Origin: Desulfobacteraceae bacterium | Lineage (GTDB): Bacteria > Desulfobacterota > Desulfobacteria > Desulfobacterales > Desulfosalsimonadaceae | NCBI GenBank assembly: GCA_021737045.1 | Contig: JAIPES010000003.1 | Location: 1 to 63,642 of the forward strand | Length of the DNA: 63,642 bases | Reading direction: 5' to 3' | Shown: positions 9,370 to 63,642 of the stretch, piece by piece | Layout of the letters: the number at the start of each line of letters is the position of its first letter | Position numbering within the stretch: position 1 is the first letter of the stretch | Position numbers and translations under genes: made by a program | Notes under the pieces: model-generated | What the model saw: the letters and a program-made list of their open reading frames with translations, nothing else | Databases searched by the model: none | What the model was told of the DNA's origin: nothing

Positions 9370-9521
9370 GATAGCCTCGTAAAAAGTAAGTTTTTAGATG
9401 GCGCCGTAAAAAGTTCAAGATCAAGGCTTGCGCAATTTCGAAGAATGCAGCGTACTTATCCGTACGTGAAATTCTGAGAAATTGCGTATAACGCAGATAT
9501 TGGACTTTTTACGGCGCCATC
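9370..9521 (+). repeat. MITE-like palindromic repeat, copy 1
   Basis: 152-bp element with near-identical sequence at 11801-11951 and 17222-17373. It begins with a decayed terminal repeat (GATAGCCTCGTAAAAAGT), then an inner copy of the terminal repeat GATGGCGCCGTAAAAAGTT at 9397, an imperfectly palindromic body, and the inverted terminal repeat ending GACTTTTTACGGCGCCATC-like at 9521. It lies between the outer membrane factor gene (stop at 9526) and the adaptor gene (start at 9362). I see no target duplication at this copy. A transcript across it would fold into a long hairpin, which could lower or stabilise distal operon expression. Confidence 0.9.
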
Positions 9522-11800: not shown

Positions 11801-11951
11801 GATGGCACCGTAAAAGTTCAATATCTGCGTTACGCGCGATTTCTCAGAATTTCACGTACTGATAAGTACGCTGCATTCTTCGAAATCGCGCAAGCCTTGA
11901 TCTTGAACTTTTTACGGCGCCATCTGAAAATCAACTTTTTACGAGCGCGTC
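11801..11951 (-). repeat. MITE-like palindromic repeat, copy 2 (opposite orientation)
   Basis: 151-bp copy of the element, inverted relative to copies 1 and 3. It starts with GATGGCACCGTAAAAGTTC, carries the same body (CGTACTGATAAGTACG region at the centre), then the inner terminal repeat ending at 11924 and a decayed outer end ACTTTTTACGAGCGCGTC. It fills most of the gap between the tetR promoter and the CoA-disulfide-reductase-like gene. The remaining gap sequence, 11678-11800, shows nothing I recognise. No clear target duplication is seen. Confidence 0.9.
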
Positions 11952-15198: not shown

Positions 15199-17028
15199 TC
15201 AGGCGCTTCTGCAAAGGCGCTGGCGCCGTTTGTGCGCAGCAAGAACGTCCTTTCGGATCCGTATTGATTTGGGCGTGATTTCAACGAGTTCATCAGCGCG
15301 GATAAAATCGATGGCCCGCTCCACGGTCATGGGCTTGACCGGGGCGAGCACCAGAGACTCGTCCTTTCCCGAAGCGCGCATGTTGGTGAGCTTTTTTTCC
15401 TTGCACGGATTGACGTTGACATCCATTTCCCGGCTGTGTTCGCCGATCACCATGCCTTCGTAGAACGCGTCGCCGGGGCGGATAAACAGCTCGCCCCTGG
15501 GCTCCAGGTGAAACAGGGCATAAGTGACCGCAGTGCCCGGCCTGTCGGCCACAAGAGAGCCGGTCAGACGGGTGGGGAAATCGCCCCGGAAGGGTTCCCA
15601 TCCGGCAAAATTGGCATTCATGATCCCGGTGCCCCGGGTGTCTGTGAGAAAGGTGTCCCTGTAGCCGATCAGCGCCCTTGCCGGCACTGAAAATTCCATT
15701 CGCACCTGGCCGGAACCGGTGTGTTCCAGGTGCACCATTTTGCCCTTGCGCGCAGAGAGTTTTTCCGTGACCAGGCCCAGATAGACTTCACTGCAGTCCA
15801 CGTAAAGATGCTCAACAGGTTCGAGCTTCTGCCCGTTTTCATATTTGGTGATGACCTCGGGCCGGCCCACGCAGAATTCAAAGCCTTCGCGCCGCATGGT
15901 TTCAATCAAAATGGCCAACTGAAACTCCCCGCGGCCCATGACCACGAACCGGTCCCGCTCCCCGGTATCTTTGAGATCAATGGCCACGTTTAAAAGCGTT
16001 TCCTTTACAAGCCGCTGCCGGATTTTGGCAGACTGCACATATTTGCCCTCCCGGCCGGAAAAGGGTGAGTCGCTGGGCATAAACACCATGGAAATGGTGG
16101 GTTCGTCCACGTGCACCCGGGGCAGGGCCTCGGGCTGATCTCCGGCACAGAGGGTATCGCCGATGGCCACGTCCTCGATGCCCGATAAAATCACAATATC
16201 GCCGGCCCGGGCCGAATCCACCGGGCACAGGGCAGCGCCCTGATACACCTGCAGCCGGGAAACCTTCAGGGGCACCCGCGTGGCGGAATTTTTAACACAT
16301 ACCAGATGATCACCGGCCTTTACCTCGCCGTTTGTCACCCGGCCCACGGCCAGCCGGCCAAGGTAATCACTGTAGCCCAGGTCGGCCACAAGCATCTGGA
16401 AGGGTTTTTCCCGGTCGCAGGCCGGGGGCGGCACATGGCTGACAATGGTATCAAACAGGACATGCAGGTTATCGGCATCTTCATCCAGGCGCTGTTTGAC
16501 AATCCCGTCTCTTCCCACAGCATAAAAATAAGGAAAATCAAGCTGCCGGTCATCAGCCCCCAGGTCAATGAAAAGATCATAAATTTCATTTAGCACCGCA
16601 TCGGGCCGGGCATCCTTGCGATCAATCTTGTTGATCAGGACAATGACGGAAAGGCCGGCCTCAAGGGTTTTTCTCAAAACAAACCGGGTCTGGGGCAAGG
16701 GCCCCTCTGAGGCGTCCACGAGCAGAAGCGCGGCGTCGGCCATAATCAGGGCCCGTTCCACCTCCCCGCCGAAATCCGCATGCCCCGGGGTGTCGATCAT
16801 ATTAATGCGAACGCCCTGCCACATCACCGAACAGTTCTTGGCGGCAATGGTAATGCCCCGCTCCCGCTCCAGGTCCATGTTGTCCATGATGCGCTCGTCG
16901 GTCTCCTGGCCGTCGCGAAACAATCCGCTCTGCCGGAACATGGCATCCACAAGGGTGGTTTTGCCATGATCCACGTGTGCGATAATGGCAATGTTTCTGA
17001 TTTGATTTTCAGTGTTGGTCTCTGACAA
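15199..17028 (-). CDS. typA: Translational GTPase BipA/TypA
   Basis: 609-residue ribosome-associated GTPase used in ribosome assembly and stress adaptation. G1 reads AHVDHGKTTLVDAM near residue 17, G2 RGITIAAKN, G3 DTPGHADFGGEVERAL and G4 NKIDR. An EF-G-like domain II, domains III and V and the BipA-specific C-terminal domain follow (ending DELVEITPKSIRIRK). I prefer the TTG start at 17028 (LSETNTENQIRN): it gives the family length of about 607, has GAAAGG just upstream, and lies downstream of the predicted promoter. The longer ATG start (17145) would begin upstream of the predicted promoter and add 39 residues with no conservation logic. Confidence 0.95.
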   Translation of the reverse strand: MSETNTENQIRNIAIIAHVDHGKTTLVDAMFRQSGLFRDGQETDERIMDNMDLERERGITIAAKNCSVMWQGVRINMIDTPGHADFGGEVERALIMADAALLLVDASEGPLPQTRFVLRKTLEAGLSVIVLINKIDRKDARPDAVLNEIYDLFIDLGADDRQLDFPYFYAVGRDGIVKQRLDEDADNLHVLFDTIVSHVPPPACDREKPFQMLVADLGYSDYLGRLAVGRVTNGEVKAGDHLVCVKNSATRVPLKVSRLQVYQGAALCPVDSARAGDIVILSGIEDVAIGDTLCAGDQPEALPRVHVDEPTISMVFMPSDSPFSGREGKYVQSAKIRQRLVKETLLNVAIDLKDTGERDRFVVMGRGEFQLAILIETMRREGFEFCVGRPEVITKYENGQKLEPVEHLYVDCSEVYLGLVTEKLSARKGKMVHLEHTGSGQVRMEFSVPARALIGYRDTFLTDTRGTGIMNANFAGWEPFRGDFPTRLTGSLVADRPGTAVTYALFHLEPRGELFIRPGDAFYEGMVIGEHSREMDVNVNPCKEKKLTNMRASGKDESLVLAPVKPMTVERAIDFIRADELVEITPKSIRIRKDVLAAHKRRQRLCRSA

Positions 17029-17097
17029 TTGGCGCCTTTCTTTGAATTTTATGCAAAATTGAGCGCCCGGCCGGCAATTATGCGCCGGGCAAGGGGC

Positions 17098-17125
17098 AAT
17101 ATAGACATCTTTTGGATAAACACAA
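17098..17125 (-). promoter_or_regulatory. Predicted typA promoter
   Basis: On the minus strand a -10 TATATT (17098-17103, five of six consensus positions) is preceded after 16 bases by a -35-like TTGTGT (17120-17125). Transcription would start near 17091. The leader then begins with a hairpin, GCCCGGC (17084-17090 read on minus) pairing with GCCGGGC (17065-17071), before the GAAAGG-TTG start. Confidence 0.45.
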
Positions 17126-17221
17126 GGATTTTCTCTGTGACCCAAAAAAACCGGTGTTCAAAAACTCGACAGAAACCGAAAAAGCTTCTAGGTAACTTCA
17201 AAAAAGTGGCTGTTAGTGCTT

Positions 17222-17373
17222 GATGGCACCGTAAAAAGTCTGATTTCAGATGGCGCCGTAAAAAGTTCAAAATCAAGGCTTGCGCAATTTCGAAGAATGC
17301 AGCGTAGTTAGCCGTACGTGAAATTCTGAGAAATTGCGCGTAACTCAGATATTGGACTTTTTACGGCGCCATC
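17222..17373 (+). repeat. MITE-like palindromic repeat, copy 3, with target duplication
   Basis: 152-bp full copy. The left end is GATGGCACCGTAAAAAGTC and the right end, read inverted, is GATGGCGCCGTAAAAAGTC (18 of 19 match). The inner duplicate of the terminal repeat starts at 17249. The element is flanked on both sides by AGTGCTT (17215-17221 and 17374-17380), a direct 7-bp repeat as left by transposition. The element has no coding capacity. The flanking duplication defines the element ends and so the 151-152 bp length of the other two copies. Confidence 0.93.
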
Positions 17374-17416
17374 AGTGCTTGGTTCTATAATTTTCGCATG
17401 ATACCGACCCGGTGGA

Positions 17417-17811
17417 GGGTTGGTCCCTGCTGGCCGCTTGCGCGCTCAATGCGACTCGCAAACCACCCCCGGGCCGGCATCATGGCCGACAGTGTGCAAA
17501 GTTTCACACCAAGGGATCCGGAGCAACACATCTAAGTCTTCGAAGTAACTTCAGGAAAAGTTACTGCATAGCCCGGTCCCGGGCGGCGGCCCGAGTGAAA
17601 CGCTTCCAAGGAAGCCCAAGGGCGGGGTCGGTTTTTGAAGCGACATTGAGCGTTTACGGAAAAATTCAGCCAATACCGAAGCTAAAAAATTTCAAACTGT
17701 TTGAGGCCGACAGGCCGAGTTTTTGAAATTTTAAGCGAAGGTATTGGCTGAATCCGTAAACGGTCAGGAGCGAAACAACCGACCCCGCCCTTGGGCTTCC
17801 TTCCTGACAAA
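17417..17811 (+). repeat. Long structured repeat, copy A
   Basis: About 395 bp in the typA-dapF gap, recurring in inverted orientation at 63290-63642. The first 100 bp (from GGTCCCTGCTGGCCGCTTGC to GGAGCAACACAT near 17532) are nearly identical in both copies. The second half (about 17607-17806) folds into one long nested hairpin: an outer stem GGAAGCCCAAGGGCGGGG with its exact complement, then CGTTTACGG/CCGTAAACG, ATTCAGCCAATACC/GGTATTGGCTGAAT and AAAATTTCAAA/TTTGAAATTTT around the loop near 17703-17713. Small stems also occur in the first half (GTGTG-N8-CACAC). No believable protein is encoded. It may be a structured RNA or a hairpin mobile element. The 135 bp after it contain only the dapF leader. 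Confidence 0.85.
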
Positions 17812-17946
17812 TATCGCACAGTGTAAGAAGGTTTTACAAAGCCATTCAAAGCTGCTGTCAATTTTCTTGTTTGCCGGAGCAGGGGCTGATAAGATATACA
17901 GGTTTACAAATTTTCAAACAATTTTGTAGTGCAGGGAAATAACATT

Positions 17947-18807
17947 ATGGAATTTTACAAATATCACGGACTGGGAAACGACTATATTGTTATTGAACCC
18001 GCACAGGCCGAAAACGGTCTTGAGCCCGGAGCCATCCGCCGCATCTGCCACCGCCAGTGCGGGCTCGGCGCTGACGGGATTCTGCTGGGTCCGTTTTTTG
18101 AGGATAACGGGGCCTTCGGGGTCCGCATTTTCAACCCGGACGGCAGCGAGGCGGAAAAAAGCGGAAACGGACTGCGCATTTTCGCCGGATATCTTTATGA
18201 CCGGGACCGGGTGGCGGACAAGGCCTTTGCCATCAACACCATGGGCGGGCCGGTCACAGCACAGGTCAGTGACGCCGGACACATGATTTCAGTGGAAATG
18301 GGTCAGGTGAGCTTTACCAGCACGCAGATTCCTGTAACCGGCAGTCGGCGGGAAGTCATCAATGAATCCATGGTCATCTGCGGCCAGAGCCTCAAATTTT
18401 GCGCCGCCACCATTGGAAACCCCCACTGCGTAATTGTCAGCGACGAAATCTCCATGGAACAAACCCGCCGGCTGGGACCGGTGATCGAAACCCACGAGAT
18501 GTTTCCCAACCGCACAAACGTCCAGTTTGCAAAAATCCTGGACCGCGCCAACCTGGCCATTGAAATCTGGGAGCGGGGCGCGGGCTACACCCTGGCATCC
18601 GGCTCCAGCGCTTCGGCGGCCGCGGCCGTGGCCCGCCGGCTGGGATTGTGTGATGCCAAGATCAGCGTTCACATGCCCGGGGGTCAATTGCAAATCCGCA
18701 TGGATGAACATTATCATATCCATATGAGCGGTCCTGTGGTCCGGGTCGCCCGGGGACAGATCCACCGGGAAGTCCTGGATCAGCCGGCCATTGCCGATCT
18801 TTTTTAA
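17947..18807 (+). CDS. Diaminopimelate epimerase-family protein lacking both catalytic cysteines
   Basis: 286-residue protein with the DapF fold signatures: N-terminal FYKYHGLGNDYIVIE, CGLGADGILLG, FNPDGSEAEKSGNG and ERGAGYTLASGSSASAAAAVA. True DapF uses two cysteines (C73 and C217 in Haemophilus) as the acid/base pair. Here the aligned residues are Ser72 (in EKSGNG, replacing CGNG) and Ser218 (in LASGSS, replacing ACGTG). So the usual two-thiol epimerisation is not expected. It could be a different isomerase, a dehydratase or a binding protein. I take the ATG at 17947 because it matches the family N-terminus; a GTG at 17929 is possible. The molybdopterin genes follow 30 bp downstream. Confidence 0.85.
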   Translation: MEFYKYHGLGNDYIVIEPAQAENGLEPGAIRRICHRQCGLGADGILLGPFFEDNGAFGVRIFNPDGSEAEKSGNGLRIFAGYLYDRDRVADKAFAINTMGGPVTAQVSDAGHMISVEMGQVSFTSTQIPVTGSRREVINESMVICGQSLKFCAATIGNPHCVIVSDEISMEQTRRLGPVIETHEMFPNRTNVQFAKILDRANLAIEIWERGAGYTLASGSSASAAAAVARRLGLCDAKISVHMPGGQLQIRMDEHYHIHMSGPVVRVARGQIHREVLDQPAIADLF

Positions 18808-63247: not shown

Positions 63248-63262
63248 TTTTCTGATTGTTTC

Positions 63263-63278
63263 GTAAAAAGCTTTTTAC
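63263..63278. repeat. 16-bp perfect palindrome
   Basis: GTAAAAAGCTTTTTAC lies just before repeat copy B. Each half (CGTAAAAAG) resembles the outer motif of the MITE-like terminal repeats (CCGTAAAAAGT). It could be a relic of two joined element ends or a weak A/T-rich hairpin after the FAD gene. Confidence 0.35.
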
Positions 63279-63289
63279 CGCGTCCGCTG

Positions 63290-63642
63290 TTTGTCAGGAA
63301 GGAACCCCGGGTCCGGCGCCGGTTTTTTCGCTCCTGACCGTTTCCGGATTTCTTCCATCCAGCCCCGGGCTTTTGAAAGTTTACTCGCGCCGGCATTGGC
63401 TGAATTTATCCCGGAAACGCTCAATGTCGCTTCACAAACCGACCCCGCCCCCCGGGGTTCCTTGGAAGGGTTCTTGCCGGGCCAGCCCACGGGACCGGGC
63501 ATGAAAACAACGCTTTTTAAGACATAAATGTGTTGCTCCGGATCCCTTGGTGTGAAGCTTTGCACACAGCCGGCCATGATGCCGGCCCGGGGGTGGTTTG
63601 CGAGTCGCATTGAGCGCGCAAGCGGTCAGCAGGGAGCAAACC
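63290..63642 (-). repeat. Long structured repeat, copy B (truncated by window end)
   Basis: 353 bp matching copy A at 17417-17811 in inverted orientation. Read on the minus strand it has the same 100-bp first block (CTGACCGCTTGCGCGCTCAA through GGAGCAACACAT), then the stem arm GGAACCCCGGG with partner CCCGGGGTTCC, and CGTTTCCGG with CCGGAAACG. The inner hairpin of copy A is partly replaced: ATTCAGCCAATGCC is kept but its partner arm is lost. The differences from copy A in the outer and middle stems are compensated on both arms. The element continues beyond base 63642. Confidence 0.83.

Follow-up and report, generated by a model that had tools for sequence, protein, structure and literature searches.

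A MITE-like mobile repeat with a structurally conserved hairpin core in Desulfobacterota

Two related repeats in the window (the whole stretch of 63,642 nucleotides analysed here), designated copies A and B, probably belong to a MITE-like family of mobile repeats that is non-autonomous, is mobilized in trans, and carries an unusually conserved structured core. Both the MITE-like nature of the element and the presence of a conserved single-strand structure in its core are well supported. While MITE interiors are often taken as filler, in this element nothing is as well conserved as the interior, and it is the ends that change.

The first-pass annotation had described a long structured repeat in two copies with compensatory changes between them. 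For copy A, the limits were derived from an alignment of 15 full copies from the genome that contains the window (G000, assembly 88% complete) and a second genome of the same genus (G004, 99% complete):

17376 to 17835, plus strand: copy A, the full composite repeat, about 460 bp
63254 to 63642, minus strand: copy B, incomplete and ending at the contig end, with outer end GATTGTTTCGTAAAAAG at 63254-63270

Both copies are present as annotated, but the limits originally assigned to A (17417-17811) were too narrow, given that the aligned full copies extend beyond them on either side; likewise, the A/B pair is real, yet it belongs to a family of dozens. Copy A sits between the divergent genes typA (15202-17145, minus strand) and dapF (17926-18804, plus strand), as assigned with NCBIfam. 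The near-identity reported for the first block of the two copies was confirmed (94% identity over 124 nt), and all of the quoted stem arms were found at their positions. In A, the outer stem pairs GGAAGCCCAAGGG (17610-17622) with CCCTTGGGCTTCC (17788-17800) and the next stem pairs CGTTTACGG (17651-17659) with CCGTAAACG (17754-17762); the corresponding arms in B are GGAACCCCGGG (63301-63311) with CCCGGGGTTCC (63451-63461), and CGTTTCCGG (63339-63347) with CCGGAAACG (63411-63419). These arm differences mark subfamilies, each of which is seen in many copies. The fold energy of A is far beyond that of dinucleotide shuffles (z of -11.6), and that of B also exceeds its shuffles (z of -3.3). Mechanical open reading frames of 104 aa and 111 aa run across the copies, the arms of which differ by indels from copy to copy.

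A 395-bp query matched about 45 places in the window's own genome (74 alignments, some of which represent the palindrome aligned with its own complement) and, in G004, about 40 places. The copies are intergenic and contain no transposase gene. Many contigs of the draft assembly end within a copy, as expected, since repeats break assembly. The copies break down into modules (ii, iv/v, and vi) that are also found alone:

17396 to 17487, plus strand: module ii, a shorter hairpin delimited by alignment; a long form of the same hairpin occurs at locus L108
17546 to 17601, plus strand: module iv/v, short palindromes found alone in other genera (matches to 140-197 in G014, G022, and G001)
17608 to 17804, plus strand: module vi, a long imperfect hairpin and the conserved core, defined by a 49-sequence alignment, consensus fold, and pair counts
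17637 to 17649, plus strand: lower internal loop of module vi, 5′ side, GAAGCGACATTGA, near-invariant between variable flanking helices
17761 to 17773, plus strand: lower internal loop of module vi, 3′ side, CGGTCAGGAGCGA, conserved in the 49-sequence alignment
17694 to 17727, plus strand: tip with a 7x2 internal loop (TGTTTGA / GA), the flanking helix of which covaries phylum-wide

Read by eye, the asymmetric loop of module ii (GCGCGCTCAATGCGACTC, 17440-17457) looks similar to the module vi loop in inverted orientation, as its reverse complement.

In an alignment of 49 module vi copies, taken from two genomes of the genus, 98.6% of cells are standard pairs, and changes affecting both sides of a pair account for 67 cells, compared to 14.4 in shuffles; a one-base shift of the pairing partner abolishes the pattern. 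The asymmetric internal loops keep their sequence, while the helices between them change by compensatory substitutions, such that the loop motifs GAAGCGACATTGA and CAGGAGCGA are almost constant next to variable helices. Hairpins of other families have the same framework and tip loop (CTGTTTGAGG..CCGAGTT) combined with wholly different flanking helices (e.g., TTTCAAAC, TTGCAAGC, TTTCTCGC, TTCTATGC, and TCACAAGC), for each of which a matching partner is present. Helix mismatches of every kind are very rare even though the arms diverge between copies, a pattern that would also arise if a DNA process (template switching or arm-to-arm hairpin repair) kept the palindrome perfect while the structure itself was unselected. 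However, such correction would erase the asymmetric loops, yet these are unpaired and near-invariant over many families, making this origin of the pairing improbable.

Covariation was then assessed for 82 hairpins, aligned with MAFFT from sequence alone, against a tree-based null generated by IQ-TREE/AliSim. Six of 14,028 column pairs covary at E<0.05, and all six are hairpin pairs, located in either the tip stem or the loop stem, with 91-100% Watson-Crick or G-U pairing and three to five pair types. The 82-hairpin set had been pre-filtered for pairing; when the test was redone on all tip matches without the filter, four significant pairs were obtained, all within the hairpin. The filter itself was passed by 183 of the 198 tip matches listed, compared to 6.3% of random sites. 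The tip loop served as search bait for many of these sequences, so its invariance there is partly by construction; covariation of the flanking helices is not a product of that bait. Thus, the earlier proposal that the stems are kept by compensatory change is borne out both by the excess of double changes and by tree-null pairs that fall only inside the hairpin, and further copies of the repeat do keep their pairing, with covariation above the tree null. A kink-turn identity for the tip was also considered and rejected by inspection: although TGTTTGA/GA shows the tandem GA pattern, its bulge has five nucleotides instead of three.

The core extends well outside the genus. In a phylum-wide sample, a covariance model detected it in 38 of 395 genomes and 23 of 245 genera, mostly in several copies each. 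All 20 of the examined model matches from outside the order fold as long hairpins, with the tip TGTTTGAG..GAGTT in 18 and the variant TGTTTGAA..GAGTT in two, and with ends that differ between genomes. The same core is found in many families of the phylum, within different terminal inverted repeats. The tip-motif matches listed for GTDB genomes come almost all from Desulfobacterales MAGs, with a few named carriers among them (Candidatus Desulfaltia bathyphila and a Desulfonema limicola MAG). At least two tip-motif hairpins that are long, intergenic, and fold alike (L224 and L263) occur in the Clostridiaceae MAG AS23ysBPME_19, which is labelled as another phylum and for which binning contamination is possible. 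Searches of plasmid and phage collections gave no match.

Evidence for mobility comes from the ends of the elements and from comparison of orthologous sites. The window's units are bounded by the inverted ends GATGGnnnCGTAAAAAG..CTTTTTACGnnnCCATC (TIR1), which constitute terminal inverted repeats of the kind that define MITEs. The count of GATGGnnnCGTAAAAAG is 292 in G000 and 190 in G004, compared to zero for a reversed control. TIR1 units enclose module vi, the palindrome M0, both of these nested, or other content, and their size (about 150-460 bp, with no transposase gene) is that of MITEs. The insertion of M0 beside copy A is delimited as follows:

17222 to 17373, no strand assigned: M0, a palindromic mobile unit with ends GATGG..CCATC, inside the left end of copy A and absent at the G004 orthologue, L071
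17215 to 17221, no strand assigned: left target-site duplication, AGTGCTT, 7 bp, clean
17374 to 17380, no strand assigned: right target-site duplication, AGTGCTT, 7 bp, clean

The window contains three M0 copies (about 150 bp, ends GATGGnnnCGTAAAAAG), at 9370-9521, 11801-11945, and 17222-17373, the last of which is a species-specific insertion with its 7-bp duplication. Conversely, a G004 unit composed of M0 and module vi (L080) is absent from the window's own genome and has the clean duplication AACTATT, and the unit at L081 is absent from both G000 and G002. As in MITEs, then, insertions are polymorphic between relatives, and 6-7 bp AT-rich direct repeats bound many further units. Four empty-site pairs (L076, L078, L075, and L097) lack a clean duplication, indicating that individual histories vary. 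The empty orthologous site for the G004 locus L097 lies in the window at about 2394-2449, where the junction is not clean.

The content between the ends is itself diverse. At L192 (90-160) and L193 (105-165), units of about 40 bp comprise hardly more than both ends (e.g., GATGGTTTCGTAAAAAGTAAGTTTTCAGATGGCGCCATC), while a third content type, with AACACTTAATCACTTAAAACTTAACACTG, lies between the same ends at L194, L202, and L090. In G070, a unit of about 100 bp (L135, 1433-1530) has the same ends without the hairpin core, and its end motif is present at several other places in that genome.

Target duplications and empty sites lend good support to the first-pass suggestion that the repeat is a mobile hairpin element, mobilized by a transposase encoded elsewhere. 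The dispersal of hairpins in mosaics recalls BIMEs, and a REP/BIME-like repeat could be mobilized by a RAYT, a Y1 HUH transposase that would act on the hairpins in single-stranded form. However, the repeat has target duplications and terminal inverted repeats, features that typify DDE transposition and not RAYT activity, and Y1_Tnp (PF01797) has no match in G000 (88% complete), so that RAYT mobilization is highly improbable. DDE_Tnp_1 likewise has no match in that assembly. Relatives do have genes of the DDE_Tnp_1, IS982-like, and IS256 types, but none of those found carries TIR1 ends. At all loci examined, including L139, L140, and 20 TIR-adjacent G004 regions, no inverted TIR1 pair encloses a transposase; L139, L140, and the other TIR1-adjacent regions hold ordinary genes or MITEs only.

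Autonomous insertion sequences with matching ends were found for two other end types, TIR2 and TIR3, but none for the TIR1 ends of the window. For TIR2, the locus L325 (G070) is a 0.9-kb insertion sequence that encodes an intact IS5_3 transposase; its ends, AGAAGCTGTTTTAAAACCC, are close to the TTAGAAGCnGTTTCAAAACC ends of the hairpin elements L209, L222, and L301. The TIR3 counterpart is the locus L368 in G006, a genome from the same genus as the window: an IS5/IS1182-like insertion sequence of 1.4 kb whose ends, GAGACCTTTGCAC, match those of the hairpin elements L235, L280, and L306 (GAGACCTTTGCAyAAC). Both insertion sequences come from the same taxonomic order, and they may move the hairpin units that share their ends. 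The unusual feature of the system is a single core riding on the ends of different IS types. In the proposed mechanism, a DDE transposase acting in trans would cut and paste the unit at its terminal repeats, and composites such as A would result from units inserting into one another. The core may serve as a strand-foldable module, in either a transcript or single-stranded DNA, with its fold presumably kept for the propagation or tolerance of the element itself rather than for cis-regulation of neighbouring genes. Conservation of the loops is deeper than terminal-repeat transposition should need, a point against this mechanism as a full account.

The first-pass annotation had also proposed a large non-coding RNA. 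The paired structure is indeed conserved, but its identity as a large non-coding RNA is doubtful, there being no Rfam family, no gene-orientation preference, and no discrimination in a strand test. In the comparison with Rfam, no family reached its gathering score for the repeat: only a tRNA, located outside the repeat, passed in a scan of the window, and 10 loci scanned permissively yielded microRNA and other matches, all of them sub-threshold. Flanking genes at the copies fall into orientation classes (++ 12, -- 16, +- 8, and -+ 7) that fit the intergenic baseline (85, 77, 43, and 53, respectively), a result that weighs against the repeat acting in cis at gene ends. These counts make it very unlikely that the repeat is a bidirectional terminator or 3′-end element placed by selection at gene ends, a function for which its stable hairpin and T-rich ends might otherwise speak.

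A functional structured ncRNA family, either trans-acting or attached to transcripts, could also have been spread by transposition, with its purine-rich loops, one of them kink-turn-like, binding a host protein. Such a family would account for the fixed unpaired loops between covarying helices and for the excess of isolated G-U over A-C in the arms, 52 to 17, on the strand carrying CTGTTTGAGG. However, the unrelated M0 palindrome, used as a control, has the same excess (24 to 4), an independent phylum set gave a non-significant 9 to 4, and only about 1% of helix pairs are G-U. The G-U/A-C counts were not used as evidence for RNA because the M0 control is also G-U-rich. Together with the missing Rfam match and the absence of any orientation or position preference with respect to genes, these results render an ncRNA family doubtful.

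A trans-mobilized, MITE-like repeat with a structured core thus remains the preferred explanation for A and B. More tentatively, the core might be an autonomous structural module, selfish and consisting of either structured RNA or single-stranded DNA, that has repeatedly swapped the ends of unrelated insertion sequences; throughout Desulfobacterota and in some Clostridia, a conserved factor of cellular or transposon origin would then recognize its fixed loops. If the interior is indeed conserved above the ends, with loops fixed and helices covarying in many families and possibly two phyla, small "dead" elements hold functional structure that aids their persistence. The family offers a testable system, comprising defined ends, candidate transposases, and loop motifs, and the covariance model provides a means of annotating the very many intergenic repeats of sulfate reducers that still lack annotation.

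No description of this repeat family was returned when the literature was searched for its sequence motifs and for related topics, a result that does not establish that the family is undescribed. The closest described systems are prokaryotic MITEs and BOX-type repeats. QMITE2 of Coxiella has terminal inverted repeats, 7-9 bp direct repeats, an intergenic location, a stable stem-loop, and no transposase, and prokaryotic MITEs in general are thought to be mobilized in trans by IS transposases (PMC10969869). The present repeat shares with prokaryotic MITEs its terminal inverted repeats, direct repeats, intergenic location, stem-loop, and lack of a transposase; unlike MITEs such as QMITE2, it has a structurally conserved core with fixed loops that occurs in many families and within several unrelated ends. 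The BOX, RUP, and SPRITE elements of Streptococcus pneumoniae are modular, nested small repeats with RNAalifold structures and mutual insertion (PMC3049150). They resemble the present repeat in being modular and nested, a likeness by description and not by sequence comparison, but belong to another host and phylum, whereas here a long single hairpin core covaries beyond a tree-based null. ERIC and Correia elements, which are palindromic intergenic mobile repeats with transcripts that RNases can process (cited in PMC10969869), also belong to other phyla. Finally, the IS5-family elements L325 and L368, for which no counterpart with the TIR1 ends of the window was found, have terminal repeats that match two end types of the hairpin elements, from which they differ in encoding a transposase and in having no hairpin core.
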